A DNA stretch of 64,000 nt from Branchiostoma floridae (lineage: Eukaryota > Chordata > Leptocardii > Amphioxiformes > Branchiostomatidae). A program made the translations under genes and the position numbers. Where the stretch lies: NCBI RefSeq assembly GCF_000003815.2, contig NW_023365765.1, positions 87,631 through 151,630 on the forward strand, written 5' to 3'. Of this stretch, positions 1-63,691 are shown one piece after another. The stretch's first letter is position 1. Each line of letters begins with the position of its first letter. Below the pieces are notes generated by a model, which was given only the letters and a program-made list of their open reading frames with translations, ran no database searches and was not told where the DNA came from.

Positions 1-90
1 CCCCCGCAGTGCTCCGTCCTGACGCACACGCTGGTCCGCTTCTGCAGACCCCGCCCGCACGTCACGCTGCAGGACGACCACCGGCTCCAT
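1..90 (-). CDS. Exon 18: TSP1 repeat 5, cut by window edge
   Basis: Begins after acceptor CGTAAG and completes the split arginine codon: [25 protein letters not shown]. The rest of the repeat and the gene's end lie outside the window. Confidence 0.85.
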
Positions 91-3000
91 CTTACGACGG
101 AAGAAATGTTGATTGTTTAAAGTAAAGATGACTTTCCAAGGTTTCTATGTCACTTATGATCACCATCTATGGCTCGATCATGACTTGCTGGATAATGTAT
201 GGAAGTAACGTCTCCTTTATGGTCTATCTAAGGCCTAAGTCATATTTCCAAACCGGGCCCAGACCGGGCAGCTTTGGGGAACGAAAAGTACTTGTACCTG
301 CCCCAGTAGTACAAGCTTCCCGGCATATATTCCTTTCCCGGTATTTTCCTTTCCCGATATTTTTCCTTTCCCGGCGTATTCCCAGTTTAAAATCATGACC
401 AAACAACTTACGCCAATGCCCCCAGAGAGGCCGGTGAAGGAGGCTACAGTACACCTAGATTTGGATTTTGAAATACTATGCAACGTGGAATTTTTAAAAA
501 ATGAAGTACATACATGCCTTGCTTCATGTTTCTTAAAGTCAGGTGAATAGACAGTAGGAAGTCATGAGAGAAAGAAAACAAGACAGAAAGACGGAGAGGG
601 GGGAATCACCTGTATGATTGTGGGCAGGGCCGCTGGATGCACTTTCTGACCACGGTGTCGGACCCGTTGCAGGGCAGCCCACCGTTCCTGGGGGCCGGGT
701 CCGTGCAAGAGCGGGTTCTGGTCTGTGAGCCGAGACCGCACGTCCGGGTACACGGGGACCACTTACTCCACTTGGTCCAGCCGCCGTCAACTGGCAAAAC
801 GATTGATAGTTACTGTTAAATAGATGTCTTTATTGAAAATAGCAGTGACCGTTTCCAAAATCATATCCAGTTGCTTGAGAAACTGCTTTTTGGCATAACC
901 ATTAGACTTATCGGAAGAAATATCAACAAAATCATACAAGGGTGTTGACAACCTTTACACCTATATAAAAAAGCATATTTCAAAGATACAAAAAGGTGTT
1001 GATAACCCTAGAATATAATTTAACGATCTTACAAAGGTATTGATGACAACCTTTAGACTTCTTTAAAAACATATTTCAAAGATCCTAACACCAAGAAAGG
1101 TGTTAAAATAATCGATCCAGTTATCAGTACATCTACATGCATACATACATATTCATACTCTTTATCGAGTTGAAGCATTGACAAAGTTACGCTTCCAGTG
1201 TGATCTATCTTTCATCAGTTCAGTGAGGTCCTTATCGCATAGTCTTAACATTCCCCACCTGGACATTTCTCTGGGTTGCAGCTGGCCTCCTCCATGGAGG
1301 GGCCCTCGCAGGGCAGGTTCTCGTTGATGCTGCATTCCCGGGTCCGTTTCCGGTACCCTCCCCCGCACGTCTGGCTACAGTCCGACCACGGCCCCCACAT
1401 GCTCCAACCGCTTTCTGGCAGGATTCAACAACATTAGAAGGATTACGCCGATGAATGTTGGACATTCAGGAAACTCAAAGGAAGGAAATTCTTTTTTAAT
1501 TATATATAAAAGATATACTGATTATGTATTGATTGATAAATGGTTTGTTGGAAAATAACAGTCCCGTCTGGATTTTGGTACTTCTTTGATAAACACACAA
1601 AAGTTTAAGATTAACTCAAGCAAAGTTATTGACCGTCTGCAAAACTGGATTAGTTTTGCAAACTATCAGAAGTTTCAGACAACGTCCACTATCAGTTGTC
1701 AGTGACTGAATATAATCTGAAATCTAACAGGGATTTCACACTCTAGTTTAGTCACTGACAGTATTCAACAACATTTGAAAGATTACGTCGATGACTAAAT
1801 ATGTTTTGCAAACAGTCAGAAAATCCAGACAGCATCTGCTATCTTTCGTAACTGAACATGATCTGTTACGTCATGAGGTATTTCAGACGAAAGATACCAT
1901 ATATATATATATATATATATATATGCTGTCTAAAACTTCTGGCCGCCAGCAAAACGTATCCAAATTGGGTAACTTTTGTATACAATGTATGAGGAACTAA
2001 ATTTTATAACAATGCGGAAATGATCGAGTATACACGACAACTGTCTCATTAGAGGTATTTACTATCTGCCATGACCGTAACAAATCAATGGTACGTTCCT
2101 AATACTGTAAATGCAGAAATGTTGGCGGTGGATTAATGTTCGCGGTTTCCGTGGTGGCCACTTCACCGCGAATTTAAAACCACCGCGAACATTTTTCTAT
2201 TATGATATTAGATTGCAGTGTATGGTGTTAACGCGAACTTAAATCCACCGCGAAAAGTCCTTTTTCCGGCTACCGCGAAATTAAATCCCCGCGAACTTAT
2301 ATACATTTACAGTATACAACGTGTATCTTGCAACAGTCGGTTTTACTTACCTGGACATGCTTTCACCAGACATTCGTCCGTCTCAAGGAAGGTACCCTTG
2401 CAGGGATCCCCTCCGCCGCTAGGGGGCGGGTTAGAACACTGCCTGGTCCGTACCCTTGCGCCTTTTCCGCACGTCGCCGTACAGGACGACCACGGCGTCC
2501 AGAACCCCCAGCCTCCGTGAACTGTAACTCACATGGTTAGATATTTGAAGCCTTTCCTGGCTGGCTATGAAAGTTTTACTCCTAGATCCTCTATCTCAAT
2601 GCTTTTATCAAACTCTTTTAAGATTGGCAAACACATCGAGCTTGAACAACATAAGGCATATGCCGGCTTCAAGGGAAACGAGCGATCTACTGGAAAATGC
2701 TAAAAATAATGACATACAAAGATATCACGATGTTGATTTGGTCTTAAATCTCGGCTATTTCTTGAGGAAATATAAAACGCAGAAACAAACACGCACATAG
2801 CTCATCACCAGTACAATTCAGAAAAAAACTGTGCGTCCGTTATGCCGATATACTATTTTAGACTATTCGCTGCTGTAAAGGAGAGAGCGTTTTCTTACTA
2901 GGATCCCGTAAGCTGGCGACTCTGTTGTGAGCGTTAGTGACGGACCCCTGCCGGACGTGTGGCCTTCCCACCGTCTCCACCCGGCTGTCGCTCCCCTCCG

Positions 3001-6000
3001 ACCCGCCTTCTGGTGACGTCACCGTTCCCTCGCCAGCCACAGACAATCTTCTACCTGGAGACAGTGTGACTAGCAATCAATTGATACTCGATTGGTCACA
3101 AATATGCTTCTTAAGTATTGAAATTCGGGCCATGAAAGTAAACCTGGCCACAGAGAGTCGACAATCAGACATCGTGTCTGTCTCGGTGTCTTATTATTCT
3201 CACGTTGTGTCGATGTCATGCAAATCTATTCTAATTAGCACAGTACGTTTGTTTTCATCAGCTCGTGCAAACGTCATGATTGAGACAAGGTGAGACGGGG
3301 AGATATAAGCGTGTTCACGGATCCAACTGCGCATGCGGAGCTTGATACATTTTGGGTAATGTATCAAATGTTAAATTCTGTGAGAAAAAAAAAACACGTC
3401 TTGTATGTATTTAAGCATTTTGGTGTCCTCTAACAAAATGTTGTAACAACAGCTATTCTAATGTCCTAACCGGTGTTCAAATGTTCGTCGACAGTGGCGC
3501 ACTTGGTATGCGTTCGATTGATTTGATGGAAACCCGTGTGAAACAGGTATAATCCCCAAATGACACGGCAAGTTATCACCCGGCCCTGAACACCCGTATC
3601 GAGCGTTATAGCGGCCCAGCTATGACGTAAGAACTGTTAACAAGGCAGGAACCAGTCCACCGTTCATCTGTAGATGCGCAATTGCGTCCATGAACAAGCT
3701 TATTGCTTTATAAAGCGGCCAATCAATCAAGGTCCAGCAAACTTTGGCCATGCGCAGTCGTGGTACGGGATGGTCGGGGGTGGATGAAAAACACTGCCAG
3801 CGATCCTGGGATTGATTCATACACTAGTGTGCAAGCAAAAGTGTAACGTGGTTTTGCCCTACCACAGATAGATCAGCACTGGTACTCCATGCAGTGACAT
3901 CGGTATCTAGTCATTGTTCGATATCAAAGTGCAACGACACAGGTTTTCAGCCCAAATTCTTGTTGAATGACAATATTTTTTGTGAAACTAAGGACCAGAT
4001 CACTTTAATAAAGGAGAAAGGTGAACTACCATCATTTTAGAGATCTAGAGCTACTACTACATGCAAGTCATCTCGGTGTAGCGTGACAGAAGCCGGTCTA
4101 CCATGCCGGGACGTGTACTTTGGTGAACGAACATCTGCCCAAAGCTGGAATGGGTGAATCGGCGTGTCTCTTGGTCTTTTCTCAGTGTTCTAAGCTACCG
4201 CAAAGTACCTGGACAGGGGATAGGGTTACAGACGTGTCTATGTACGTCCGGGCCCTGGCAGGGTTTTCCACCGTTCGTCGGGCGAGGGTTGTTACATGTC
4301 CGTCTGCGGAGCGTCCAGCTTTTCCCGCACGTCTTGGAACAACGGCTCCACTCGCCCCACGGGCTCCAGCCCCCGTCAACTTTGTCACAGGTTAGCAGGT
4401 CAGTACACAGTCACTTATATATAGTTCAGAAGTAGAGAGTCTTTACAGCTCGTATGTTAGTATTGGATAATCATGTTAATTAGATCTTAGATCATAATAC
4501 ATGGTAAACTTTCTTCTATCAAACAAACACAAAGTACACACGGATCAAATTTTCAACGACCACCGTCACCTTCTTCAGGATCAATACTGATGACCAATCA
4601 CTTCAGAATGTAAACTCACGAGAGTGTGTGGAAGAAAGTTTAGCATTGTAGTGTGATTACTACCAACACAGATGAGCTTCCATGATAGATCTTAAATCTT
4701 TTAGTGTAAACCCTGAATGATAGTTGATCCTGAAGATTCTGAAGAATGTCTGATACAAGACAAAACTGGTATATGAATACCGTTTTGTCACTCCTGTTGC
4801 CATTCTACTGATGTTTTTAAATATATATGTATACTACCGTATACTATTGTAACGATAGTTTACAATAAATACATCGATCAACTGACTTGCACTATGCAGG
4901 ACCAATACAAGGAGAAATTTCAAAGCGGTATCCTAACAGCAGGTTGATAATACAACATCAACTCCGATAAAAGTGTTACCTGACATCTCGTCCTTGGCCA
5001 CCCCTCCTTCCACAACTCTTCCCTCCACAGTCGCCACCTCCTGTCTCACGGCTTCATGATCAATACCTGAAATATGCAATAATAGCTTGCTGAATCCCTA
5101 AGGCTGTGTAGAAATCCCTTTTAATGGCTGTAAGTATTCATGTAAGTAGTCATTCAGTAAAGGTCACTTTCCGAACATGTGAGGTAAGCACGGGGTCAAA
5201 GGTGGCTGGAAGTTTGTAAGGACCACCGTCTTCCTACATCTTCAACCTCAGACAATTTAGAGCTCATTATGTATACACTTATATATGCACTTACCTTCTA
5301 TCTCGGACAAGAGAGACGGCTTGCCAGGGTTGGATCTGCTCCTAGAGTCCGGCACCCGACCGATCCCCTCAATCTCGCTCAGAGTCCGCTGACGCGATCC
5401 TTCGCCTTCTGCCACAACCCGGACCTCGTCGTTACCTACGCGCGGAAGGATTAAAAAGTACCACATTGTAAAAAAATCCAACAATTCTAATCGACAAACT
5501 TCCGTATGAGCGACAGGTCACATGTTTGACATACAAGGTAGACTCACGGGGAAGTTGGTCAGGGATATTGTTGGCTCCAACGAACATTCATGTTAATGTC
5601 TGTAATTGTACTTGAATGCAAGTTCATCTGTGACGGTAATCAACATTATGTTGCAATTTTACACTTTACATCCGTACACAAAATAAAGCGTTTTCAACAA
5701 GCTTTTGATCAGTCTTCTGATCTTCGAGTTGAAATGACCCATTTGGCCAACAGTTGAAATGGGTCGATACCGACTGCCAAGCACCTTCAACCCTTTGGTG
5801 ACGTCACACTTCCGATCTGGAAGTGCCACATAGACTTTGTTTCGTTTCAACTTGATCACAGGACTGATCTATTGTTGGTATGTGATTTATTTTGTGTACG
5901 GATGTAAAGTTTAAAATTGCATCATAAGTTGGTAAATGTAGTATTGTACAGCGTCTTTTGTTGAATGAAATCACCAATAGCCCCTACCAGATGTTTCTGA

Positions 6001-9000
6001 TATCATGCACAAAATGCCATTCCGTCGCATCACGTTGTAAACCTTTCAGTGCCTTAGTGTTTTGTTAGGGGCTGTTGGTTTCAATGTTTCTGTGTTACAG
6101 TCGTACATATGCGTGCGTCCAATCACGATTATTGCGGTTTTACCCAAACGTTCGCTCTTGCTTTCAGCCACCATGCTGCAGTTCGTATCAGCTTGCATAT
6201 TTAGCCAGAAGTCCCCTCTGGAAGGTAAAACCTACCTTGCGGCGGTGGCGGCGCCATTGACACACGTATGGCGGAAATAGCCGGACCACCCTTGAACCGG
6301 GGCGGCTTATTGCGGTGGTTCCGCCGGTCATCTTTGACCGAATGGGGAAAGATAAAACGGACAGAATGATTTTTTTCGTCGATCTTAAGAATACTTTTTT
6401 ACCAGCATTAAAATGCCACCATGGATGAGCACATCGTTACGTGAAGGCATTGCGAACGGAAACAAGAAGGATTCTCTCCTGTAATATTCATCCCTTTATT
6501 TCGCTGTTCGAATGGCAATGGAGACAAAAATGTTTGGATGTTTACAGTGTGAAATGTGTTTGTATGTATGGTGTTGTAGTTTCTAGTTTGTCATAGGTCA
6601 TGAACGTTCAGTCAGGTGGTAGTTAGGTCAAGTGTCATGTGTTAATTATAAATTTGGCACGTGGTAGTTACAAGGGTGTCACGTGGTAGTCACAAGTGTA
6701 TCACGTGGTAGTCACGTGTTAGATATACAAGCAAGCACATTGTGTGTCATGTGGTAGTTCTAAGTATGCCACGTGGTAGTCACAACTGTGTCACGTGAGT
6801 TACAAATGTATCACGTGGTAGTCACAAGTGTATCACGTGGTAGTCACAAGTGTATCACGTGGTAGTCACAAGTGTATCACGTGGCAGCTACAAGTGAGTT
6901 ACGCGTTAGACACATTCAATCACATTGTGTGTCATGTGATGTCACGTGGAAGTCACGATTGTGTCACGTCATAGATATACGTTAATTACATGATACTAGT
7001 AATCACATGTGTGTCGCCTTTTAGTTCACAAGAGTGTCACGTGATAGCTACATGTCTGCCACGTGCTAGTCATGGATGTGTCGAGTGTTAGGTACATTAT
7101 GTATTCCCACCTGTGTCACGTGGTAGTTACTAGTTTGCCATGTAGTTATATGCTTATGTATGCGACGGCAATTGTGTTAACACATTTCATATAAACGTCT
7201 TGTGCAAGCAAGACCATTATGGTCTCTTTTCCGTGCATTATGACGTTGCTATTGATAGATTTTGATAGATTTCAAATTCAAGAACCGACAATATAGTTAT
7301 CAATCGCACAAAGACTTAATTGCACAATTCTAAGTAGAGCGCTTTCGCCTCAAAATACTGCTCAACCCGCAAGTTATACTATCATATACTCTACTTCGTG
7401 AAGAAGTTTGTTGTTCTGTGTCTATGTCCATGCAATTTCTGAAATCAAAACTGCACTATTCCATTTTTTTCAATTTGAAAAAAAAGGCCGACTGAAAGAA
7501 GCAGTTCATTTTGTGCATACTTTCATTTGCATGCATTATAATCGCCTCCTGTTGCTCTACACGAATTAATGTGTTTTACACTGCAACAGCCTTTGTCAGT
7601 ATTACCTGGTGACCCCTGACCTCTTCCCTCGGATGTACCCCTCAGCAGATCCAGGAAGGTGTTGGCACGTGACCAGACGGAGGTCGGTGACCCCGTGCCC
7701 TCAGCAGGACCGGGGGATGTCTCATATTCTGATGACGTCGTCTGAACGGTGTGGTGAACTGTGTGGGTCAATCAAATCAATCAATAAATTGCTGAATCAA
7801 TCAATCAATGAACCAGTCAACTTAATTTATCCTGCTGCGCGTGCGTCAGCCTCTCTGTCGGTCATTACACTGTAAATTAGATTAAGTTATTAACAGAGCA
7901 ACATTGTTACATACCGACCTATAAAGCAATCTATGCGTGTCGAATCATGTACACTGTACCATGATTTGAAGCTACCGTCCTACAGTAAAGCCTCATTAGC
8001 TTACAGTAAAGAGTCTGTACATGAGACATGTCACTTAATGTTATGGACAAAGATTTATTTGCATATCTATCTACACTTCAAAAATCCAGTCACTATTCTA
8101 CTGAAACTTACGAAGAGCATTGTTAAACCCTGTCAGTCCTTGATGCTTGGGTGAGATATGACCCTGGCGTTTGGCGCCAATACAACAGGACCACACAGAA
8201 AGGGTTCCTGAACACTACGTCTTTGATAAAGTTCCATCGTCTCATATTGCTTACCTTTCAACAAATTCAATGCCACAGATGACGCGTGTACAACGTTTTG
8301 CTGTTGTTATTGCTAACTGACACAGGTATGTGAAAGGATGTGTGGAAATCATTTGTCAAGATATAATAACTTTTTACTTGGCAGCCATCGCTCTGGCCAA
8401 GGATATCTTACAACAACTGTTCCGAGAACAGCAGTAATGCAAAATAATTACTTTTCACCAGTCAGACAAAACACCCAGGCGCCACTACTCTGCTCAGTAC
8501 CAAAGAATGAGCCAAGGTTGTATAGATTTATTAGCAGAGTTCAAACCGGAGGCAGAACTAAAAGAAAACACCCTTCCGAAGCTCACTCCGAAGCAGCCTT
8601 CTTTGGCTAAATCCAGAGGTGGTAAATCATGCCTCCCTCATTTATTGCTTAAAACTATGGAATGCTGCAAAACAGGTGTTTCTGCTCTCTTCTTTGCTGC
8701 AAAGTTTGAAATATCCGAAGTGATAATGATAAACAAAATTAACCTGGTGTATTATTGTGGTCAGTTGGTACACAATATGAGTAATGAGTCTGTTTTACGT
8801 GCTCGAGGCACCTCCTCGAACACGGGGTCCCGTTTACGTATGAACGCCCTCACATCATGTCCGAGCTGAGCCGACCATGGGATCGAACCTAGGCCTGCGG
8901 ATCCAATGAAATGGTTCCAGATAGCTGAAGAACCAATATCAGAAGAACACATGGTATCTAGAACTTAAATCATCACTTTTCAATACTTTCAGAAATGTTG

Positions 9001-12000: not shown

Positions 12001-15000
12001 CCAGGCGAAATGACGATCCGACATATCAGTCCTGTTTGTCTTTCAGTTTGCTCAGCAGGTCTTGTTCTCCGATAACCCTCTAGGCACAAAACAAACAGTA
12101 TCCTGACATGCGACAAGGATGATCTGCTGTTCATTAGCTAATAGAAGAAGTGGTCTTCCTACGACGTAGCTAAATAGGCGTGATATATTTACCTCCGTGA
12201 AATTGTGTGTGTGTCTGTGTGTGAGTATGTCTGTCAACAAGATAACTCAAGAACGGCTGGGTTGACTGGTTTCATTCTTGTTTTGGTGGTAGGGTGTGAC
12301 GAAAGCTGGAAATGATTAGATTTAGGCCCCCTTGGTACTGCAGTGGAACTTCTGCTTTTGCAATCTCGTGTTTTGAACACGCTATTGCCACTATTTTTTG
12401 GGTGTTAGATACCTATTGTGCTTGGGAAGAAGTAACAAGCTAAAACCGTTGCCAGTCTGAACCTGGAATCAATATATGGTACTTTGTGCCAATGCCCATC
12501 GTGGTTGCTGATAACAAAGCAAAAAGCAATTTGTATGGCTGATAAGTGACAACAAACGCGTCAACACATACTGATAACGCATGACCCTACTCGTGATGGG
12601 ATAAACAACTTCGCACACTCGTACGTTCAACACCAGAGACCTGCCAACAGCAAGCTACCTTCTGTTGTTTTGAAACGATGCCCTTGGCTAGGCTCTTGAT
12701 TTCCAACGAGTGCCCGGCACGCGAGGACTAGGAAAGACATAACCTCATTACAGGCATTTTCGTTGTTTACTGTACGTTGAATTTCGCTTCGAACAAATCA
12801 ATAACAGGGCGAGCATTTCTGCGTTTGATGAATAACACAACTAGGCTGTTCGTAAGTTACACTTCACATACGGCCTCTCCTACGAACCTACGAAAGTTGC
12901 AGACGAAAAAGGTGAAGAGCTGGAAAACAGGATTATTCATCCAGCCCAAACACGGCACTGTACTGGTGAGACGAATTAACTCAGAAACGAATCATCAAGG
13001 TTAGGAAAAGCATGTCTGAGTTCGACGAATAACACAATATAATTAATTGTGTAGCCCGTAAACTATACTAGTACTTCACACACAACACCAAACCCAAACC
13101 CAGTACTGACGAGGTAAATAAACTGCTGCGGGGTCACCTGGTACGTAACGTATCAGTGAACTTGTTTACTCGTCAAGCTTCACGTGTGCGCTCACCCTGA
13201 CCTACATACACAAGGGCACTGATACCTACAACTACAGCAACCCGGGGCAATGACCTGGCATTAACATTAGCAATGCCTCCGAAAATAGTTTCATCAGGTT
13301 GGTGGAATATAGGATATAGGAGAATTCTTGTTACACAACCAGCACTGTAGGCAATGTAAGTACCTGTAGCCTGTGTTTACACAAGCTTTCGCTGGCTGGA
13401 GTAATTACCCCCTCGTAGGGCCGACCGCTAGGGGCGCGATTTTAGTCAGGCTATAAGTACCTGCTGGTTGTGTAAAAAGAATTCTCCTATATCCTATTGG
13501 CAATGCCTGTTAGTTGGAACACTTTAAACAGCCTTTTCCTTCCATGGAATGCATCATGTTGTGATCTCATGTTTCCCAAGATGTTAGAAACCGAAGGTCT
13601 TTTAAGGTCTTCATAAACTTAACCTGACGTACTGTTGAAGAAGCTGCATTATATTATGCCGCAATACTTCGTAATTAAGTAGCTTGTACGTATAAAAATG
13701 TGCATGTTTGTGAGTTGCAGCATCTGGTCTCGCCAAGCCGTTGTACCATCTCATGAATCACACGCGATGATACAATAAGCTATCTTTGAGATTCAAAAAA
13801 CAGTTTAAATAGTATTGCGACATTTGTACTGTATGAAAAAGTATGGAAACACCACTTTACCTTCAGTGCGTCCTTCAACGTCATGTTCTCTCCTAACACC
13901 TACACCGCCCTGTCTGTCTGTGTTGTCAGTGGGACGTCCACCGCGATATCCCTCTACTGATGTCCCTTCTACAAACGTCCTTTCCACAGATGTCTGTTCC
14001 ACAGATGTTCCTTCCAATGGCGCGCCAAACGCAGGTATGGCACCGCCGTCACAGACGTTCCCCTGGTACACCTGTCCTCCGCAGCACACCTGCATCAACA
14101 TCGTCAGGTAAACTATTTCAACTTTTTGCAATCAAAATATCACGATGCAGTTAAAATATCACGAACGTGTAGACTTAGATGGTACTTTACTGTGACACAG
14201 GCAAATCCCTTTTGAAATGATATCACTGTATATTCAAGGGATTCACTTCAATAAAGCACAAAATGCAACGTGAACCCTCTATCAAATGCGTTTCAATTCG
14301 TACCTCGAGTAATGACCATTTCTACTCAGTCTGCGTACAGATGCGGGTCAAAATAACAAAAATCAAGATCGATAGCGGGCCCCTAGTGGCTCCCTAAAGT
14401 ACTGCTGCAAAACTTCCATTTTTGATAAATCTTGTTTCTTCATGATATAATTCCCAAGATGAATGCTTAATATGCTAATATCAAGTTGGTTAGAAATAAA
14501 ACTGAATGCCTCACCTGCCTGCCTATGTTGAAGACGACCTCCCCACAGCATCCCCAGACGGGAGAGGCAGGTACGGTAGACAGGCTGTTCCCGCACCTGA
14601 GACAGGTGTTCTCACCTTCTGCACCTGCCCGCACCTGTCATTTACCAAAATTTTATCCGCATTCGAGTCAAATTTACAACACCCAATCGGGCTATATATT
14701 CCGGTTAGCACTAGTACACAGATTATCTGCAAAGTCGTTAACCTTGAGTCCTCGTCGACAAGAACCAGTGTGAGAAAGAACCATTACAAATATTGTATTG
14801 TCAAATATTGATGTTCTAGAGCGACAAATGCAGGTAGAGTGAACTCGTGAAATCATTTTAAGAAGCAAGCAGAGTACAACCTGGGTTTTTAAGGCCAGCC
14901 CCCCCCCCCCCCCCCCCCCCCCGGCCCCGAGCGACATATAGTAAATTTTACATGGAGGGGCGTGTATCATGCGATATGAAGGTGTTCTAGCGCATTATTG

Positions 15001-18000
15001 TAGCCATGGTAAGAAGATGACCAGGACGATTCCACCGGAAACAAAAAAGGTAATTATAAAATATAATCCACATACGGTTCCCTGGCAGCAGAAGTGAGTC
15101 TCCGGGTTGTAGGGCGTGTTGTCCGGCCCGCAGCAGTGCCACTCCGGGTCCGAGGCAGGGCGGATAAACGCCTTCTGTCCGCACGTCTGACACGTGTGGT
15201 AGTCATTGCCACCTTCATGCAACTAGACAAAAATCATCATCACTTAGAAATGCTGAAAATTACTAAATCGTACGACGTCTTTCATTGCCAAATGCCCTCG
15301 ACAAAGGTAAAACCGCGTTAATCCATATCTCGACTCATTATTTACATTATAGTTAGAGGTTCACAAAGTCGAAACCGATAGGCCTCTAATAATCGGCAAA
15401 TATCTCAGCAGTTTTTCGGTTGACTTGACGTGATATTTTAACGGTCTCAACTGTCTTCAGATGACCCGTCGATATTCTCAATGATATTTCAATGGTCTGA
15501 CTCTCAATGACCAATGGTTCTTCGTTGCCCAGTGGACGCCCAATAGTTTTGAGGAAATAGGAAACAATGCATGTAACACTCAATGGGACACAATAAATTC
15601 AACGCACAACGCCCCTATAAACAAGACCGTGACGGGGGTCGCCACCAGCAACCTTACCTCCCCCGCACAGCAGGTGTGAGTTTCCGGGTTGTAGGCGTCC
15701 AGTCCGCAGCAGTAGTAAGAAGGCTCACTGATCCTCCTGCTGTACGTCTTACTGATGCACCTCTGGCACACAAACTCGTTCTCCGGTCCGTCCTTTAGCT
15801 CGTCGAAGCAGCAGTGCTGCAGGCCCGGGTTGTACGGTAACTTGTTGGAGCCGCAGCACTGGCAGTAACGAACGTTTAATGAAACGTTATCTACAGGTTC
15901 GTGGACGGGAGCTAATTGCAAGTATGTACATATGGGAATCATACATATGATAGTGACAGAGCAAGCATACATGTAACAAGAATATTGATTGGCAGAAATG
16001 GACTAATTCAAATACAATGTACTAATATTTGCTATATCTAGACAAGTTGAATTTTTGCTTCTTTTTTTTAGAGCGGACAAAGACGGGAAAAGCCCAAATT
16101 TTTCAACAATTTCTGGGTTCTTTCGTCGCGGTTGAATAAGGTTCTTAGGTCCTTCCGGTGTGACTGTTTGAAAACCTACAGTCCTTTGGCCGCACATGGG
16201 GCGATTGCCGTCGTTTTGAGGTAACCTGAGTTAGCGCCGAATGGCAGCCACTCTAGACCCTTGCGACAGTCGTATTGAGGTCACCTGAATTAACACCGAT
16301 GTAGTTCAGCCTAATGTAAGCTTCTGACAATTTAGGCCCTGGCTGCGAAGAGAGAGTAGTCGGCCCACCCAATAAAATGAACAATAAAAAAAAATGGACA
16401 CCTTGTAGTGCGGCTCGCTGCGCTGCCTGCTGAAGGCCGCGGTACCGCAGCGGTTACAGATGTAGTCCCGCTGCGGGCCCGGCTTGACCCTGTCGAACCC
16501 CTCGCAGCAGTGGTGCGTGGTCGGGTCGTACGGGATCTCCGCCCGGGCACCGCAGCACCGGAACGCCGGGGCCGTGCGAGGCTTACTGAAAACGGTCTCT
16601 CCACACCTGATAATAACGATAAACAAATATCAGAAACGGAGCTTAAGTTGCAGAACCCCTACCCTGGGGGCCAGCCGGGATCGGGCAGCTAGGACAGTTT
16701 ATTCGGTGGCCCAAGACAGTAAGGCCCGCCGATCTCCTATTAGCGCTCCGGGGAGTTTGAACCAGAGGAGGTCCACCTGCAGTCCTTCGGGCTTAAACTC
16801 CCCGTAGTGCTAATGTGAGATCGGCGGGCTGACTGCCTTGCGTCCCCGAACAAAACTCGCTAGCTACCCGATCCTGTCTGGTACCCAGGGTACAGAACCC
16901 CTCGCAGCAGTGGTGCGTGGTCGGGTCGTACGGGATCTCCGCCCGGGCACCGCAGCACCGGAACGCCGGGGCCGTGCGTGGCTTACTGAAAACGGTCTCT
17001 CCGCACCTGATGATAATGATAAACAAGTATCAGAAACGGAGACTCCGCTGAGCTTAAAAGGTTCTAAAATGTAACCATTTCGAGGATGAGCATGTCTTGT
17101 GTTATGTCGTTGTAGATGCCATTTTTGTTTGTTTAGACCATATTTCTATGCTTGTGAAGGTACACGACCAACGAATTTTCAACAATGCTAGGAGATGGAG
17201 GTGATCGCTAAATTAAAGTATGTAGGAGGGAAGCACTTGACAGATTTCCATAGTTTTTAATACCAAGGAAAGATGTCTAATAGTGACCTACCGATGGCAC
17301 TCGTAGTTGGCCTGCACGCCTTCATACACCTCGTTGTAGCAGCAGTGGTGCGTCTGCCCGTTATACGGCACGTTCTCCTCCCCACAGCACAGCCATTCGG
17401 ACGATTCCGTCGCTGGGAACGAGACCACGTTCATCCCGCACCGGATACACCTGGTACTGGCTTCCGGTCCGTTCAACAGCTAAAGGAGAAATCGTACGTT
17501 GAGGATCACCTGTTTCGCAGTTTCTGATAATCCCATTCCTAGTAGTTTGATATATAAAGGACAAAACTTCATCAACCAACTTCGTCGCAATCAAGTATTA
17601 CTAGCTGGCGAGGTCAAGTTCTAGTGAATAGTGCTGATGCACTATATACTGTTCAGTACTCTGAAGGAAAGACAAAGATGTAACGGACAAAGATCCATCA
17701 GAACGAATAAAAAGACAAATGACAGTAGGTAACATACTCCGTGACGTATTCATGGTTTCCGCCGCATCAGTTGTAACGATATAATATATATTATGCCGAT
17801 GATATGGACAGTCCCAGACGGACAAATAACGAAAATAACGAAAGAAGAAAAAGGAATCGAAGTCCTAATATTACTGATAGCATTCCAGGACAAATTATAC
17901 ACCAAGGCGTAAAAAGAATAGACGTGGGTATTGTTTGTGTATATATTTACGTAAACATTTATATTTTTCGTTAACTTTCCCAAAAAAAGTCCGACCTGGC

Positions 18001-21000
18001 CTCGGGACCCAGCCGGGTTTGCAAATGTGACGTTAGACACTTACGATCCCCGTACTTACTGTATGTATGAAACTGGCGTGTTACATCTAAAGGCGGTTTA
18101 CCGGTTTTGCGAAACAAACAAACAAACAATCAAACATGTACCTTGTGGAAGCAGCAGATGTTTGTCTCCGGGTCGTACGGGATGTCGTTGTTGTCCCCGC
18201 AGCACCTGAACGACGTCTTGGCGTCCAGCGGCATGACGAAGGTGGTCTGTCCGCAAGCCTTGCACACGTGCCTGTCCGCCGCGCCCTCGTAGATGCCGTC
18301 CGGACAGCAGGTGTGCGTCAGGGGATCGTACACTATCCACCCCTCTCTGGTGATGCACAGGGCCGGGTCTATTGATGACACTTCGTATTCTGGCGCTAGG
18401 AGGAGGCATGGAAGACATTAAAGTAAAAAGAAATTGCTGCGAAGAAGATGAGATCTGTGTAGCAACCTATCTCTCGTAACTTAAGCCGTCCATACACGTA
18501 CACTATGCACCCCTATCTGGCCGGGTCTATTGATGACACTTCGTATTCTGGCGCTAGGTGGAGACATGAAGGTAAAAAAATTGAGACGACCTCAGCAGAT
18601 GCAGCTTTGTTGCATGCAAGGGGTATTTGGAGTATCCGTCTCTTAGTCCAAGGAGGACTTCCGACCAAGGATACAAGGGGTTCCTCCTCCCGCCTTTGAC
18701 TCGTGTAATGCGGGTGCGTAATGTCCGAACATGCTCCTATGGCATGCCACTGCCACAATATGTACATTTAGTCCCTGATAACGTCCCTGTTATTGCTAAG
18801 CTATAGAGCTCCCTCACACATTGCCAGCCACTCAGCTTCAAGCCCCCACACAAACCGCACCAACATGCAACAGCACACATCATGAGTTTATTCAATATTC
18901 CCAGCTATACACAGATGTCTCCCTGATGTATATGTGTGATCACAACTGTGACAAACTTCCTCGTGTAAGTCGGACACCTTTAGACTTACAAGCACCCTAC
19001 TGTCATAGATGGTTAGAAAGACGTGCCAAAAACACCAGCAAGGCTGATGAATATGCTGCGATGTCCACATAAGTGAAGGAAGTCCTCATTAAATTCTGTA
19101 GATTTTCCATTACAACAGGTGGTTCTTTTACACTTGTCAAGGACCCTGACGGCCTCAGACGAACTACAACTTGTAGAAGTAGCCTCCAAAGGCTGAAAAT
19201 CTACTTGATCAGGAAAAACGATCTTTCCCTGGACTGAAGCCATCATCTTTTCCTAATGTGTAAGTGGTAGCGTTGAGATGTTGAGATAATTAGACGTACC
19301 GCTCTAGTGATTAATAAGTGAGGAAATTCCGTTGGTCATTGAACACTCTACTGTGAGAACACATGCTCCTAGTGTCGTTTATGTGAAGTTTATCCAATTC
19401 AAACCCACGTTTGTCAGTCGACGTTATAAAGCTCTCCTTGTTTTCCCGTCCATTTTTTGGCTCTGAACCCTTTCCGGGTGCCAGCTCAGAGTGAGACCTG
19501 AATAAGACCTTACCCAAAGCCTTCTTGTGTGCAGTAATCAAGTTACATTCATCTTAACCTGATCAGACCACCTGCATCGATGGTTTAACTTCCACGTCCT
19601 GAAGTTTCAGACGAAGTCTTCCCAAGGCGCGCGTGAGGGATCAACTTGAGCAAATCACTTTACACCACAGTGACATGTCGCGCAATACAATGCTGAGACA
19701 CGGGTATTTCAATCGTTGAATACAATTCAGCTAATTGTGCTGCAAGCTGATCTACAAATGTTATCATATGGACGTCATGGATATAGACAAATGATTCACT
19801 GTGATCGACCGATAACACAATGATAGGGACTAATTAGACTCTCAGGAAACCCAACTCCGATTGCCTTATCACAAACCCACGGGGCTTTAAATTCTAGTGA
19901 TAGTCTTGGCCGTGACATAGCGAAGGGGGATACAACAGCAAACTGGGCACACTGATCGCGCGCCAAATCTGTGGTATTTAGCACCTGGCGCAGCTCGTCC
20001 TATAGCTAGTGCCTGAATACGCAATATACATGTATCAAATAAATTTAAAATGGCAAACGGTTAAAAGTGGATGCCCTGAAGTACAGAGGACTTGGCTTTT
20101 CAATAAGGCTTTACGTCCACTTGACAAACACCATTGGATGAGTGACGAAGGTCTGTGAGATACTTCAGAGACCATTAGAAGATAATAAGATATCTATGAA
20201 AGACCCCGAAGAACATTTAACGTTAACTGAAGACTAGTGAGAGATCTATCAGCGTTAGTGAACTCAGTCAAGCGAGCGGTCGGTTGAGTTGGGGGCGTTC
20301 AGTCCTAAAGTAGACGTCTGAAACCCTTGACGCATTATAATGAAAACACCATGTGATGCGTGCAAGTATATCTAAGAATACAACAAAACACACAAAGCGT
20401 AATTAACAACATTCGATTGTACATCAATTAAGGTTAGACATCCAGGTGATAAGATACGCCACTGACGAAAGACACCGGATGGCTGTCCGTTTCCAAAACC
20501 ATATCCAGTTGCTTTTTGGCGTAACATTCGATTATCATTAATGACATTCGTTCGAGGTCAAGTGTAAAATGTATGGAACCACAAAAAGACAGCGAGCCTT
20601 TCCCGGTCAGTGACCTACTAACCGAATAGACACTTAGGTAGGCGGGCAGAAAATGGATAAAGACATGAGACATCCCAGGAGGCTTGGAACGGTAACCAGC
20701 ACAGACGGCAGGAAATGCCAAACCTTTCAGGACGACTTTAACAGTTCCTCTAGATATAACCTTACTTTTACCAGATGGCACTCTGAGAGATGCTATCGCG
20801 GACTCCAGGCAGAATAGTGTGAAATCTACTTAAGACTAAGGGATATCCTGATAAAACAAAGAAATATATCTATAATATCAAACAGTGGCACTGTTCCTGG
20901 GGTTGTAGATTCACACCATTTATAGCAGTATAAGTCCATGATAATGATCAGACGTGCTGCCATAGATTGGGCAGACGTTCCCTTGGGTATGGCATTGAAC

Positions 21001-33000: not shown

Positions 33001-33580
33001 TCCGAGCATCTGGATGATCTGGGGGATGGCTGGACTTCCTAGTAGATTCGACTGGTCAATCTTTATGCTAGTATTAAGTCTCAGTGAGTTTTGAACCCCG
33101 GCCAAATAAAATTGTGTAAATCCACAATAAGTATCGAAACCAACTGCAAACTATTTCACTTATCATCAGGTACCGTGCCTTTAACATGAATTTACGAACT
33201 TGTCTTTCGGAGGGACGTGCCTTGAGCACATAAATCGGCCTCATTACTCAAACTTGGGTACCTACTGGCTGCAAATGATTTCGATATACCACATATGTAT
33301 TATTAGTACTTAGAAGATCTTGGAATGATACACACAGAAAACTGTTACACACGCTAGATAATTGTGACATACCTCCGATGAGATTAGCCATATTGCGAGG
33401 ACCTGTGAGGTATGCACAGTACAAATTGCTTACATTCTTACAGCAATTATGTAAGTCTGAACAAACAGAACAAAATCCGAGCGCTCTTACCTGCATTACG
33501 GCGACCACGGCCAACATGCAGACCCTGCAGGACACCGCCTGGGATCCTCCCTCGGATTTCCGTGCGTTTAACTGCATCAT
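1..33580 (-). CDS. Galaxin-repeat plus thrombospondin type-1 secreted protein (partial, 18 exons)
   Basis: A multi-exon gene assembled from splice sites and phase: 33580-33491, 31481-31442, 18395-18142, 17479-17292, 16606-16402, 15858-15658, 15222-15076, 14634-14515, 14089-13861, 7758-7606, 5435-5295, 5066-4980, 4379-4209, 3054-2899, 2521-2351, 1414-1259, 790-610 and 90-1 (incomplete). All junctions join in frame, giving at least 926 codons. Order: hydrophobic leader (about residues 22-43), galaxin-like dicysteine repeats (about 50-430), Gly/Ser/Glu-rich linkers (about 430-618), then five TSP1 repeats (about 620 onward) with a linker exon after the first. Galaxins are dicysteine-repeat proteins first found in coral skeletal organic matrix; TSP1 modules bind matrix and glycans. 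A secreted matrix or cell-surface role is inferred. The C-terminus lies outside the window. Joining exon 2 to exon 3 over about 13 kb rests on phase only; exons could be missed there. Confidence 0.8.
236..300. repeat. End fragment of GTCACATTT-type inverted-repeat element
   Basis: Matches the left arm of the element at 39,464-39,660 (TTTCCAAACCGGG, GACCGGGCAGCTTT, GGGAACGAAAAGTA). Lies in the intron between TSP1 repeats 4 and 5. No other content was recognised in 91-609. Confidence 0.55.
610..790 (-). CDS. Exon 17: TSP1 repeat 4
   Basis: Fifty-nine codons, phase 1 to 2: [28 protein letters not shown], ending CIQRPCP. Acceptor TTGCCAG, donor ACAG|GTGATT. Confidence 0.9.
832..905. repeat. Fragment of dispersed CGTTTCCAAAA/GTTGCTT repeat
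   Basis: Shares CCGTTTCCAAAA, CATATCCAGTTGCTT and CTGCTTTTTGGC with 20,434-20,530, and less closely with 27,150-27,275. The style (GACGAAAG...GAAACG) is reminiscent of Penelope-like element ends, but no reverse transcriptase is present. Confidence 0.4.
1259..1414 (-). CDS. Exon 16: TSP1 repeat 3
   Basis: A 156-bp 1-1 exon: [30 protein letters not shown], ending CNPEKCP. Acceptor CTGCCAG, donor CCAG|GTGGGG. Confidence 0.9.
1899..1923. repeat. (AT)n microsatellite
   Basis: About 12 uninterrupted AT units within the intron between TSP1 repeats 2 and 3. The remainder of 1,415-2,102 shows nothing recognisable. Confidence 0.9.
2103..2314. mobile_element. MITE family A, full copy
   Basis: Terminal inverted repeats TACTGTAAATGCA / CATTTACAGTA, with internal ACCGCGAA-rich inverted arms. 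Very similar copies lie at 51,440-51,609, 54,060-54,269 and 63,474-63,691. Non-coding, with a probable TA target duplication. It lies 37 bp past the donor of the TSP1-2 exon. Confidence 0.85.
2351..2521 (-). CDS. Exon 15: TSP1 repeat 2
   Basis: A 171-bp 1-1 exon: [28 protein letters not shown], ending CLVKACP. Acceptor GTTACAG, donor CCAG|GTAAGT. The cysteine spacing matches TSP1. Confidence 0.9.
2899..3054 (-). CDS. Exon 14: Gly/Ser linker between TSP1 repeats 1 and 2
   Basis: Fifty-one codons, phase 1 to 1, open throughout ([17 protein letters not shown]). Acceptor GTCTCCAG, donor CCTA|GTAAGA. Skipping it would keep frame, so it may be alternative. Composition resembles exons 10 and 11. 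No domain recognised. Confidence 0.5.
3055..4208. other. Intron between TSP1 repeat 1 and its linker exon
   Basis: No further phase-1 exon with good splice sites or recognisable repeat was seen here. Confidence 0.4.
4209..4379 (-). CDS. Exon 13: TSP1 repeat 1
   Basis: One thrombospondin type-1 repeat in one symmetric 1-1 exon of 171 bp: WSPWGEW, CSKTCG, RRRTC, CQGPD, ending CNPIPCP. The WxxWxxW tryptophans (C-mannosylation) and CxxTCG (O-fucosylation consensus) are present. Acceptor GACAAAG, donor CCAG|GTACTT. Confidence 0.9.
4980..5066 (-). CDS. Exon 12: short acidic linker
   Basis: Twenty-eight codons, phase 1 to 1 ([13 protein letters not shown]). Acceptor TTTCAG, donor TCAG|GTAACA. It sits directly before the first TSP1 exon. 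Confidence 0.6.
5295..5435 (-). CDS. Exon 11: linker
   Basis: Forty-six codons, phase 1 to 1, with two imperfect LSEIEG motifs and a basic/serine stretch. Acceptor GCGTAG, donor GAAG|GTAAGT. No recognised domain. Confidence 0.65.
5645..5927. mobile_element. Foldback MITE, about 40-bp inverted arms
   Basis: The left arm (TTATGTTGCAATTTTACAC, CATCCGTACACAAAATAAA) is the near-perfect inverted complement of the right arm at 5,886-5,926. Non-coding. The open frame inside is a by-product of the arms. Confidence 0.8.
6658..7122. repeat. 22-bp minisatellite with 14 CACGTG sites
   Basis: A tandem array of a 22-bp unit (consensus TCACGTGGTAGTCACAAGTG plus two bases), best preserved at 6,790-6,885. 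CACGTG starts at 6658, 6680, 6702, 6713, 6770, 6792, 6812, 6834, 6856, 6878, 6942, 7038, 7060 and 7117. CACGTG is the palindromic E-box bound by MYC/MAX, USF and CLOCK-type bHLH factors. The array is intronic. No repeat was recognised elsewhere in 5,928-7,605. Confidence 0.9.
7606..7758 (-). CDS. Exon 10: linker
   Basis: Fifty codons, phase 1 to 1, rich in Ser, Thr, Gly and Pro ([18 protein letters not shown]). Acceptor CCACACAG, donor CCAG|GTAATA. No recognised domain. Support is the matching phase on both sides and composition like neighbouring linker exons. Confidence 0.6.
10789..11107. repeat. Direct tandem duplication, period 168 bp
   Basis: Two copies starting at 10,789 and 10,957 share CCTGTCTGATGTGCCTTTGC and a long following stretch (GTCCTACGTGGTGAAACTCA, AACAAGGGTTAAGTTACACC). 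The second halves have diverged. Non-coding. Confidence 0.85.
12196..12365 (+). repeat. Dispersed repeat family E
   Basis: Begins with a GT/GTCT-rich tract, followed by ACTCAAGAACGGCTGG and ending CTTGGTACTGCAGTGGAACT. Related copies are at 48,585-48,765 (plus) and 61,990-62,190 (minus). It resembles a short interspersed element. No coding capacity. Confidence 0.6.
13306..13501. mobile_element. Foldback MITE (ATATAGGATATAGG arms)
   Basis: Arms AATATAGGATATAGGAGAATT and TTACACAACCAGCA at the left are inverted at the right (TGCTGGTTGTGTAA, AATTCTCCTATATCC). About 60-bp terminal inverted repeats, non-coding. Confidence 0.85.
13861..14089 (-). CDS. Exon 9: end of galaxin block and TSVE-repeat linker
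   Basis: Seventy-six codons, phase 0 to 1. It opens with [10 protein letters not shown] (last dicysteine) and becomes a linker with imperfect repeats ([14 protein letters not shown]). Acceptor GATGCAG, donor GAAG|GTAAAG. This exon marks the switch from phase-0 galaxin exons to phase-1 linker/TSP1 exons. Confidence 0.75.
14515..14634 (-). CDS. Exon 8: galaxin-like repeat
   Basis: Forty codons, phase 0 to 0. It reads CLRCGNSLS and [10 protein letters not shown]. Acceptor ATGACAG, donor CAG|GTGAGG. It is a shortened repeat lacking the YNPxTH part. Confidence 0.75.
14899..14922. repeat. Homopolymer C run (24 bp)
   Basis: Uninterrupted C tract in the intron between galaxin exons 7 and 8. A likely assembly or polymorphism hotspot. 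Confidence 0.9.
15076..15222 (-). CDS. Exon 7: galaxin-like repeat
   Basis: Forty-nine codons, phase 0 to 0, with [15 protein letters not shown] and YNPETHFCC. Acceptor TTGTCTAG, donor ACC|GTATGT. Confidence 0.85.
15658..15858 (-). CDS. Exon 6: galaxin-like repeats
   Basis: Sixty-seven codons, phase 0 to 0. It begins directly with CCGSNK, completing the SEPHYK of exon 5, then shows [20 protein letters not shown] and YNPETHTCC. Acceptor ACTGCCAG, donor GAG|GTAAGG. It carries two full dicysteine cycles. Confidence 0.85.
16402..16606 (-). CDS. Exon 5: galaxin-like repeat (intact copy)
   Basis: Sixty-eight codons: [19 protein letters not shown], then YDPTTHHCC, then CNRCG, ending in SEPHYK. Acceptor ATTATCAG, donor AAG|GTGTCC, phase 2 to 0. 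Its 5' half and acceptor are duplicated at 16,895-17,006. This copy has both splice sites and is the likely functional exon. Confidence 0.85.
16660..16892. mobile_element. Foldback MITE with 9-bp target-site duplication
   Basis: The two halves are inverted complements over about 100 bp each. Termini are TACCCTGGG and CCCAGGGTA, and inner arms share GCCCGCCGATCTC and the AAACTCCCCG region. It is flanked by a perfect 9-bp repeat, CAGAACCCC (16,651-16,659 and 16,893-16,901). Nine-bp duplications are typical of Mutator-like elements. No coding capacity. It lies on the junction of the exon-5 partial duplication. Confidence 0.85.
16895..17006 (-). pseudogene. Partial duplicate of galaxin exon 5, no donor
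   Basis: Nearly identical to the 5' part of exon 5 (acceptor through HHCCEGF), plus the flanking intron. Homology stops at the CGAACCCC/AGAACCCC junction, so the CNRCG half and donor are missing. The open frame continues into the neighbouring foldback element and stops near 16,793. Its acceptor is as good as that of exon 5, so it could act as a decoy or alternative terminal exon. Otherwise it is a dead fragment. Confidence 0.8.
17292..17479 (-). CDS. Exon 4: galaxin-like repeat
   Basis: Sixty-two codons with [22 protein letters not shown] and the first half of the next CxxCG unit (YECHR|CG). Acceptor TCCTTTAG, donor CG|GTAGGT, phase 0 to 2. The split arginine codon is completed by exon 5. 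Confidence 0.85.
17780..18033. repeat. Copy of GTCACATTT-type inverted-repeat element
   Basis: The right part (TTTTTCGTTAA, GTCCGACCTGG, TTGCAAATGTGACGTTA) matches the right arm of the element at 39,464-39,660, including the AAAAAGAATAGACGTGGG interior. The left boundary is uncertain. Intronic, between galaxin exons 3 and 4. Confidence 0.6.
18142..18395 (-). CDS. Exon 3: galaxin-like repeat
   Basis: Eighty-four codons. It shows YDPLTHTCC, then [13 protein letters not shown] and YDPETNICC: the repeating pattern of galaxin-type proteins (Y-[ND]-P-x-T-H-x-CC, then CxxCG, then CCG). Acceptor CTCCTAG, donor AAG|GTACAT, phase 1 to 0. A short copy of its 5' end and acceptor lies at 18,505-18,560. 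Confidence 0.85.
18505..18560 (-). repeat. Duplicate of the exon-3 acceptor region
   Basis: Repeats the 5' end of exon 3 and its acceptor (GGGTCTATTGATGACACTTC, GTATTCTGGCGCTAGG). An internal deletion removes the CCAGAGAGG part. It carries an acceptor but no full exon, so it is a fragment. Confidence 0.75.
20434..20530. repeat. Fragment of dispersed Penelope-style repeat
   Basis: GTTAGACATCCAGG, ATACGCCACTGACGAAAGACA, then CCGTTTCCAAAACCATATCC. Related to 27,150-27,275 and 832-905. The GAAAC part seen at 27.2 kb is lost here. Confidence 0.5.
22677..23566. repeat. Three tandem copies of a ~300-bp repeat
   Basis: Units start at 22,677, 22,987 and 23,285 with CGATTCAAGAACACGAACTG. They share GGCCATCTGGAGAAA, GATACTGCGTCAT, ACGTGGTTCAAGTAAAACAT, AACAAGGTCCTCGCCAAGAC and CTACAATTAC. 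Periods are 310 and 298 bp; the third unit is slightly shorter. No open frame spans it. Confidence 0.9.
24350..24480 (+). repeat. SINE tail fragment
   Basis: CCCCTTCGGAAAGGTACTTT, TTTCCTCAGT and CTTCGGTTAGCGAC match the body of the tRNA-headed SINE at 58,321-58,565. No tRNA-like head is recognisable here. Confidence 0.6.
27150..27275. repeat. Penelope-style repeat with hammerhead-like core
   Basis: GTTAGACATGG, ATACGCCCCCCAGTGA, CTGACGA (27,191-27,197), then GAAA (27,217-27,220) and CGTACGTC. CTGANGA...GAAA...GTC is the conserved core order of hammerhead ribozymes, which occur in Penelope-like retroelements. Stem I pairing is poor, so this is a decayed copy at best. Confidence 0.45.
28449..29411. 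mobile_element. Non-autonomous piggyBac-like element
   Basis: Flanked by TTAA on both sides (28,445-28,448 and 29,412-29,415), the hallmark piggyBac target. Ends are TCCTCAAACCACCGTA and, inverted, TACGGTGGTTTGAGGG. A GGGGTCAAAACTGACCCC palindrome follows each end, with another copy at about 29,200. 963 bp, no transposase. The left end has a ~25-bp insertion duplicating CCGTA. Confidence 0.8.
30544..30564. repeat. Homopolymer G run (21 bp)
   Basis: Uninterrupted G tract within intron 2. Assembly-sensitive, no other meaning apparent. Confidence 0.9.
31442..31481 (-). CDS. Exon 2: end of signal peptide
   Basis: A 40-bp exon between a TTTAG acceptor and a GTAAGA donor, phase 0 to 1. It reads [13 protein letters not shown], extending the hydrophobic core of exon 1 and ending in a plausible signal-peptidase region. 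The leftover base joins the exon at 18,395 in frame. It is short, so support comes from the splice sites and the continuous hydrophobic leader. Confidence 0.6.
31482..33490. other. Intron 1 of the galaxin/TSP1 gene
   Basis: No exon recognised. A SINE-tail-like fragment occurs near 33,170-33,240 (CCGTGCCTTTAACATG, TTCGGAGGGACGTG). Confidence 0.4.
33491..33580 (-). CDS. Exon 1: start codon and first half of signal peptide
   Basis: Thirty codons from ATG to a strong donor (CAG|GTAAGA), phase 0. The start is hydrophilic ([12 protein letters not shown]), followed by a hydrophobic run ([10 protein letters not shown]) that continues in exon 2. A second in-frame Met at residue 22 would give a conventional short signal peptide, so the true start may be there. 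The promoter and any 5' UTR exon were not identified. Confidence 0.65.
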
Positions 33581-62267: not shown

Positions 62268-62322
62268 TGACGTCTAACCAGTGACTCGCTGCCCACTCTT
62301 TCTTCTCCCCGTGTCCATTGTA

Positions 62323-62730
62323 ATGGCGTCTTGTACTACAGCTCGTGTCAAAACAACACCCACCGGAAATTATTGTGTCGCAGGAGGCCCAAACGGTGTT
62401 AGCTGTAAGAATGGTCAGTCTACGAGGGGGATATCAATGCACAGATTCCCCAAAGTTAAACATGACGGAACTGAGGCTGACAAAAAGAGGCAGAAAACAA
62501 GAAAGCTTTGGATCAAGTTTGTTGAGAGGCATCGTCCTGGTTTTAAACCTAAGTCCGCGACATCTTCCTTGTGCTCGGCTCACTTCGAGCCCTCCTGCTT
62601 CACCACGAACCTTGAGATTGCGGAGCGCTGTGGAATGTCGAGAAGGCTTGTCCGAGGAGCAGTTCCCACTATTGACACAGCTGGTCTGCCGACTCCAAGT
62701 GTCCCAGTCACAGAACGCGCGCGTAGACGG
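62323..62730 (+). CDS. THAP-domain first exon, copy 1
   Basis: 136 codons from MASCTTARV to ERARRR, donor CGG|GTGAGT, phase 0. THAP-type C2CH zinc finger: Cys18, Cys28 (CVAGGPNGVSC, wider than the usual CxAxxC spacing), HRFPK, Trp63, RHRPGF, then CSAHF (Cys84, His87) and GAVPTID. THAP domains bind DNA and derive from P-element-like transposases. Later exons lie beyond the window. The 253 bp before copy 2 have no coding exon, so this exon must splice past copy 2. Confidence 0.85.
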
Positions 62731-62905
62731 GTGAGTTCGATACAGTTAAAGTTTACATGAATTTGATGAAATGAGATTGAAAACTTGTGATTTTGTATGA
62801 TTTTCTAACGATTCAAGATGTTATTTTCCTTGTGATTAAAATAACATATATCTAAGTTATGTTGAAACGCCTTCAAAGAATGCGATTTGGGGCATCCTAC
62901 GGAGA

Positions 62906-62932
62906 ATGTAAATGAGATGTAAATGATATGCA
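62906..62932 (+). promoter_or_regulatory. Octamer-like promoter motif, copy 2
   Basis: ATGTAAATGAGATGTAAATG and ATATGCA, 78 bp before the copy-2 ATG. A diverged duplicate of the block at 62,241-62,267. Confidence 0.4.
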
Positions 62933-62983
62933 GTCGTCACAGTGATTACTCGCTTTCCGCTTCGTCTAGCTCCCACTTTAAGT

Positions 62984-63397: not shown

Positions 63398-63473
63398 GTG
63401 AGTTGGATCGGGGTCAGTGGTACCGCGGCCGCCAGGTCAGATCAGGTCAAGGGGCGGTTTGGGGGTTTTCGAG

Positions 63474-63691
63474 TACTGTAAATGCAGAAATATTCGCGGT
63501 GGATTAATGTTCGCGGTTTTCGCGGTGACCACTTCACCGCGAACTTAAAACCACCGCGAATATTTTTCTATAATGGTATTAGACTGCAGTCTATGGTGTT
63601 ACCGCGAAATTAAAACCACCGCGAAAAGTTGTTTTTCCCGCTACCGCGAAATTAAATCCCCGCGAACTTAACGTTAAATGCATTTGCAGTA
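63474..63691. mobile_element. MITE family A, full copy
   Basis: TACTGTAAATGCAGAAATA start, AAATGCATTTGCAGTA end. About 76 bp inside the intron after THAP copy 2. Confidence 0.85.

Follow-up and report, generated by a model that had tools for sequence, protein, structure and literature searches.

We consider it fairly probable that the exons described here belong to one large gene, which would encode a secreted modular extracellular protein. In order, this would consist of a signal peptide, a seven-cycle galaxin domain and flexible linkers, with 27 TSP1 modules after them and a fibrinogen-related-like domain at the C-terminal end. The fuller picture is held tentatively, with a confidence that stops just short of even: in it, a chordate with no mineral skeleton makes one giant secreted protein of about 2,200 residues (the sum over our exon list), a three-part scaffold of matrix or mucus that joins a galaxin ladder of coral type to 27 TSP1 modules and a head resembling fibrinogen-related domains. 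Such a combination was seen once in the genome searches and would have formed when the symmetric galaxin module was inserted in a phase-1 TSP1 gene. We judged the arrangement to be a new combination of known modules. The window, i.e. the whole stretch of 64,000 nucleotides that was analysed, corresponds to positions 87631-151630 of a Branchiostoma floridae contig of 151,630 bases (C207), and the genome-wide searches covered 513,431,437 bases in 431 contigs.

The joined exons were compared with Pfam and matched Galaxin_repeat (PF24748) with E 7.4e-16 and 58.7 bits (cut-off 28) in three stretches, and the joined exons of the window matched TSP_1 (PF00090) with E 1.1e-48 in five stretches. Both matches exceeded the Pfam cut-offs in this search of the translated product, a check that had been proposed in the first-pass annotation, and the galaxin and TSP1 identities given there were right. 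The strand, which that annotation had left out, is minus for all galaxin and TSP1 exons. Two home-made profiles (TSP1 and galaxin), trained on these same sequences, were run on the real open reading frames and yielded 35 domain rows for TSP1 and 13 for galaxin at E≤0.01, every one of them from the contig's minus strand; reversed open reading frames gave 0 matches at E≤1. Exons were scored in bits with codon and splice models whose training set was the exons of this same gene, and plus-strand candidates served as the null (maximum 27.6 bits). The eighteen exons claimed previously were not reproduced: seven galaxin exons, five TSP1 exons, the signal-peptide exon and one linker exon could be supported in the window (Table 1), and the scores of the remaining upstream exons were not above the plus-strand null.

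Table 1. Exons and exon-like features in the window, in minus-strand order; positions are those of the window unless marked C207.
Feature	Position	Strand	Phase	Score and remarks
Candidate first coding exon, 30 residues, with signal peptide	33491..33580	minus	phase-0 donor	donor score 9.3
Galaxin exon 1	18142..18395	minus	1 in, 0 out	66.8 bits
Galaxin exon 2	17292..17479	minus	0 in, 2 out	43.4 bits
Partial near-copy of galaxin exon 3	16868..17006	minus		35.5 bits; 400 bases upstream
Galaxin exon 3	16402..16606	minus	2 in, 0 out	60.5 bits
Galaxin exon 4	15658..15858	minus	0-0	58.7 bits; other upstream acceptors are phase 1
Galaxin exon 5	15076..15222	minus	0-0	33.5 bits
Galaxin exon 6	14515..14634	minus	0-0	26.2 bits, slightly below null maximum
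Galaxin exon 7	13861..14089	minus	phase-1 donor	last di-cysteine, Gly/Ser/Glu/Thr-rich linker, no stop
Linker exon	7606..7728	minus	1-1	possible exon, weak; 14.4 bits in longer form 7758-7606, inside null
Linker exon, probable	5295..5435	minus	1-1	30.1 bits (null maximum 27.6); acidic and Ser-rich
TSP1 module 1	4209..4379	minus	1-1	profile match
Linker exon between TSP1 modules 1 and 2, possible	2899..3054	minus	1-1	weak; 25.0 bits, inside null
TSP1 module 2	2351..2521	minus	1-1	profile match
TSP1 module 3	1259..1414	minus	1-1	profile match
TSP1 module 4	610..790	minus	1 in, 2 out	profile match
TSP1 module 5	1..90, continuing to C207:87587	minus	2 in	profile match

The galaxin domain is encoded by seven minus-strand exons (18395-13861) and comprises 388 residues, 46 of which are cysteines (11.9%). 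It contains 15 di-cysteines with a spacing that alternates between 33-36 and 13-16 residues. About seven cycles had been reported, and seven cycles of the form CxxC(G) - CCG - CC were indeed found, together with half-repeats at both ends. The exons have AG/GT borders and the six internal junctions are phase-matched, the site having been picked among alternatives by motif and phase in at least one case (acceptor 15858). A second possible acceptor for exon 1 is located at 18389, and the splice of exon 3 restores a CxxCG motif across the junction. Exon 6 is backed by the alignment with the C13 paralogue described below. The score of exon 7 on its own was 0.5 bits and the exon was omitted by the automatic gene models; it was retained because a 13-residue stretch in it corresponds to VCCKDEVFQGTKC in the paralogue and the two sequences can be aligned at all 46 cysteines. 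When the galaxin domain was used in a PDB sequence search, no relative was obtained at E≤1.

Two local duplications were observed in this region. Positions 16495-16641 and 16895-17041 (147 nt) are 97% identical, and in the resulting near-copy of galaxin exon 3 the frame is lost after CCEGF; the near-copy was taken up by the automatic gene models and is probably unused, or a duplicate of assembly or haplotype origin. In galaxin exon 1, too, the acceptor and the first codons occur twice (18361-18431 and 18519-18589, 158 bases apart, 83% identical).

The closest galaxin paralogue in the genome consists of two exons at C13:16413696-16415150, of which one piece matched PF24748 with 44.9 bits. Aligned with the galaxin domain of the window it is 52.7% identical over 376 residues and the two have 46/46 cysteines in common, and this retention of every cysteine at such a level of identity points to constraint. 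The C13 module starts at a phase-1 acceptor (score 6.6) and ends at a phase-1 donor (score 9.2). Given that entry and exit are in phase 1 in both copies, the galaxin domain is in both a symmetric 1-1 module, which is also the class of most TSP1 exons at the present locus. Within the module there is one intron in the C13 copy, placed elsewhere, and six in the window copy, and this difference in number and position points to intron gain or loss.

Five TSP1 modules are present in the window, as had been noted, but these are just the first of 27 on the contig, and the fifth crosses the window edge. The other 22 lie beyond the window on the minus strand, from C207:86983 to 65992, and two of the 27 are split by introns. 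The exon of module 1 scored 21.3 bits, inside the null, and its identity comes from the profile match. For 21 of the modules outside the window a Pfam scan returned 21 stretches (E 4.4e-214), and the halves of the split module number 6 matched the home-made profile weakly (E 0.002 and 0.017). Among the 25 unsplit modules to which the motif check was confined, W..W was present in 25/25, six cysteines in 24/25 and C..[ST]CG, which we take to be the O-fucosylation site, in 21/25. As chosen, the TSP1 exons and those of the last domain, like the galaxin exons, have AG/GT borders and phases that match. For the split modules and the last domain a phase-aware program set the exon ends, so that their matching phases are partly a result of construction. 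Thrombospondins proper also contain EGF domains, type 3 repeats and the TSP C-terminal domain, and Pfam scans of the joined exons gave none of these. Partial TSP1 copies (three at C207:85542-85923 and two at 74606-75018) were excluded from the total. The first three are tandem copies of a single TSP1 exon at a spacing of about 140 bases, preceding the full copy, and in each the module breaks off once its first part is complete.

After the last TSP1 exon three further exons follow on the minus strand (C207:65420-65255, 62804-62675 and 60857-60600), with a GGGWTL stretch and then a stop, ending VRILYWMREGRAPIYTKS. When compared with Pfam Fibrinogen_C (PF00147) they scored 13.4-14.5 bits, which is under the cut-off of 22, and the best match among solved structures was to angiopoietin-related protein 6 (E 0.0016, 35 residues). 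These similarities suggest that the C-terminal domain is fibrinogen-related-like, with a Pfam score below the cut-off. C17 and C235 carry relatives of the domain, and a weak one was seen on C16. Together with the 22 additional TSP1 modules, this end of the gene lies outside the window and had been missed when the extent of the gene was first described.

Several features in the neighbourhood were recorded. An exon at C207:51151-50915, of terminal type and with a strong transmembrane stretch and a charged tail, was tried as the end of the gene and rejected, as it had a good terminal-exon score but no tie to the gene; it may belong to another gene or be an alternative end. Farther along, at C207:37212-35028, two long minus-strand exons were predicted, the first with two IQ calmodulin-binding motifs, and these are likely to be part of an unrelated downstream gene. 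On the plus strand of the window, adjoining open frames at 62278-62760 and 62927-63481 contain THAP domains (PF05485, E 2e-14 and 3e-13).

At the other end, the exon at 33580-33491 was the top signal-peptide candidate between 50000 and 18395, scoring 21.2 bits compared with -3.8 for the next independent candidate, in a scan that is blind to start exons shorter than 40 bases and to split signal peptides. As a control the plus strand of the whole contig was scanned, and 2/85 candidates scored at least 15 bits, one of them 29.5; the score of 21.2 bits is thus by itself no proof of a start. Given that this exon leaves in phase 0 and galaxin exon 1 enters in phase 1, at least one exon must be missing between them, and no candidate for such a bridging exon scored above the null maximum of 27.6 bits. 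The signal peptide of the first-pass annotation is kept as the best start candidate, while an above-null exon joining it to the galaxin exons was not found. The exon is likely to be the start of the galaxin gene, its link to the galaxin exons being the part that we infer.

To what extent the pairing of galaxin and TSP1 modules recurs was examined in the rest of the genome. TSP1 profile and protein searches yielded the best places among the matches listed, and a complete genome list was obtained for a DNA pattern representing one TSP1 codon variant, with 42 places of which 13 were on C207 (3 in partial copies) and 0/42 on C13, home of the closest galaxin paralogues. No TSP1 was detected by profile in 3.4 kb around the C13 galaxin (a further 1.4 kb downstream was inspected by eye) or near four further galaxin places found by Pfam (about 3.3 kb around each), and none was found in 100 kb near the C1 galaxin gene or in 50 kb near the C12 galaxin, which was detected by Pfam and missed by the home-made galaxin profile. 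Within the reach of these searches, where the complete list represents one codon variant, the pairing thus gave no sign of being shared with other loci. Very similar long arrays with TSP1 modules every ~503 bases were seen at C3:27382319-27386550, C4:34196553-34206323 and on C314.

Whether the galaxin and TSP1 exons belong to one gene depends on the 9.5-kb gap between galaxin exon 7 and TSP1 module 1. The exit of the last galaxin exon is a phase-1 donor in the window as well as in the C13 copy, with no stop in the window's exon, and the entry of the first TSP1 exon is a phase-1 acceptor that matches it, a match that is weak evidence since phase 1 is the commonest class here. No good initial exon with a signal peptide was found in the gap, the best scoring -1.6 bits (21.2 at 33580). 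The probable phase 1-1 linker exon inside the gap (5435-5295) scored slightly above the null, and the window contains no N. For these reasons one secreted protein with both kinds of module is more likely than two. The AATAAA signals in the gap (9 observed, 5 expected) decide nothing. The alternative is that two adjacent genes lie on the same strand, the first (33580 to about 8000) for a secreted protein of galaxin-like type and the second for a TSP1-array protein starting in the gap, and that the fusion is a reading error. Such a model scored less than 10 bits from the one-gene model, the score of one gene minus that of two being 7.5 or 9.4 bits (two codon models) at the usual costs for starts and stops. 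Lowering those costs changed the margin to -1.5 or 0.4 bits, and removing them changed it to -19.0 or -18.5 bits, so that two genes came out ahead under lax priors. Given that the sign of this margin shifts with the start and stop priors, the number of genes is not settled by the sequence. In the printed run, however, two genes required an 8-residue terminal exon (FCLRFELC, then stop) and a 22-base start exon with no signal peptide.

An unconstrained model of the contig placed galaxin and TSP1 in a single chain, but ended that chain with a stop after TSP1 module 16 and gave module 17 a start of its own, drawing on partial duplicate copies there. It recovered neither the signal-peptide exon nor the final stop and overran into neighbouring genes, which makes it a poor judge of gene ends. 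The locus falls within a dispute over whether lancelets show exon shuffling or annotation error: extreme exon shuffling with a phase bias was described (PMC4284660, excerpt), and a reply held that the novelty may reflect gene prediction errors, with example fusions in B. floridae refuted by ESTs (PMC4967905, excerpt). Those refuted fusions, and the lack of TSP1 modules near the galaxin paralogues within search reach, favour two genes, which we regard as possible, with a real but minor share of our confidence. The galaxin and TSP1 exons are likely to form one secreted protein, as the first-pass annotation had it, on the strength of splice sites, phases and the signal-peptide scan; the reading goes no further than likely, because with lax priors two genes score nearly as high or higher, and the paralogues do not support it independently.

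A different source of error would be an assembly chimera in which two loci were juxtaposed by haplotype merging. C207 measures 151 kb in an assembly where contigs can reach tens of megabases, and it carries several partial near-duplicate exons, and the B. floridae assembly, with 19 chromosomal scaffolds, was made by merging two divergent haplotypes (PMC7269912, excerpt). On the other hand, the window is free of ambiguous bases (N = 0), the sole N run of C207 (275 bases) is located past the last domain, and strand and exon phases are consistent across the join; we therefore find a chimera very improbable. A related idea was rejected. C207 does not resemble a haplotig of a placed locus, the best TSP1 relatives elsewhere being at most about 65% identical among the matches listed, and it has just three DNA pieces longer than 300 bases in common with C1:7420001-7520000.

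From the observed modules and their order, the possible splice sites with their phases and the conserved cysteines, we infer a single transcript, secretion, binding functions and the tissue as follows. Exon shuffling in phase 1 would have set the symmetric galaxin module ahead of the TSP1 array. By analogy with predicted models in which hairpins are joined by di-cysteine bridges (PMC12419799, excerpt), the galaxin part may fold into small hairpins that such bridges staple together as a rigid ladder. Judging from their families, the TSP1 array would be a long rod, C-mannosylated and O-fucosylated, that binds matrix partners, and the C-terminal domain could act as a recognition head. The whole protein might then serve as a cross-linker or scaffold of a cuticle-like matrix or a mucus layer.

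A matrix or mucus protein is probably what the gene encodes, and this was our first choice, ahead of mucosal recognition and then of a mineral role. Under mucosal recognition the protein would be antimicrobial and not structural, with a galaxin head, a TSP1 stalk and a fibrinogen-related end that binds microbes in pharyngeal mucus. The squid galaxin-like protein EsGal1 is reported to be antimicrobial and to modulate symbionts (PMC7853314, excerpt), lancelet FBG genes are reported to evolve in TLR-like patterns (PMC4284660, excerpt) and the C-terminal end resembles fibrinogen-related heads such as that of angiopoietin-related protein 6; as this match is limited to about 35 residues, we think such a role rather unlikely. 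A mineral-associated matrix protein, like the galaxins of coral skeletons, is highly unlikely in our estimate. Galaxin-type di-cysteine proteins do occur in the skeletal matrix of corals and calcareous sponges, but galaxin-like proteins are also present in animals with no skeleton (PMC12419799, excerpt), and Pfam scans of the exons gave no known mineral-binding domain.

If the exons are joined in one transcript, the galaxin ladder, familiar above all from the skeletons of corals, is a movable domain in a non-calcifying chordate, and the rapid exon shuffling that has been claimed for lancelets gains a concrete example. If there are two genes, it is a further warning against inferring domain fusions from DNA. 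The first-pass annotation knew of no described family with this combination, in agreement with a limited literature search in which, as far as the available excerpts go, no description of galaxin and TSP1 in one protein was found, and galaxin, thrombospondin and amphioxus were not mentioned jointly. Galaxin and thrombospondin appear as separate proteins in the accessible parts of PMC4890752 and PMC7853314. A coral mucin4-like skeletal protein combines N-terminal TSP1 domains with another matrix module, the partner being mucin4 and not galaxin (PMC4890752, excerpt).

Compared with coral galaxin and galaxin-like proteins (PF24748; PANTHER PTHR34490), tandem di-cysteine repeats are found in both, and a signal-peptide candidate lies upstream here. 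The cysteine content is similar (11.9% here, 12.4-13.4% in coral galaxins; PMC2726143, excerpt), whereas the repeat units differ: here two di-cysteines and one CxxC are spread over about 50 residues, and in the excerpted sources the coral galaxin unit has two di-cysteines in about 30. An RXRR protease site is a feature of stony-coral galaxin (PMC6824150, excerpt). In the lancelet, TSP1 modules follow downstream and RXRR is absent from the 388-residue galaxin stretch, the part scanned for it.

SCO-spondin, properdin and hemicentin-type proteins are TSP1-array proteins. Long TSP1 runs are common to them and to the present locus, where the modules are mainly single phase 1-1 exons; in place of their other typical domains, none of which were found in the scanned exons, there are a galaxin head and a fibrinogen-like end. 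The large galaxin-containing proteins of sponges are usherin-like. They carry a galaxin-like stretch amid fibronectin III and laminin EGF domains (PMC12419799, excerpt), so that in sponges, as here, a galaxin-type region would lie within a very large secreted multidomain protein. The exons of the lancelet gave no fibronectin III or laminin match in Pfam, and the neighbours of the galaxin domain are instead TSP1 modules and a fibrinogen-related-like end.
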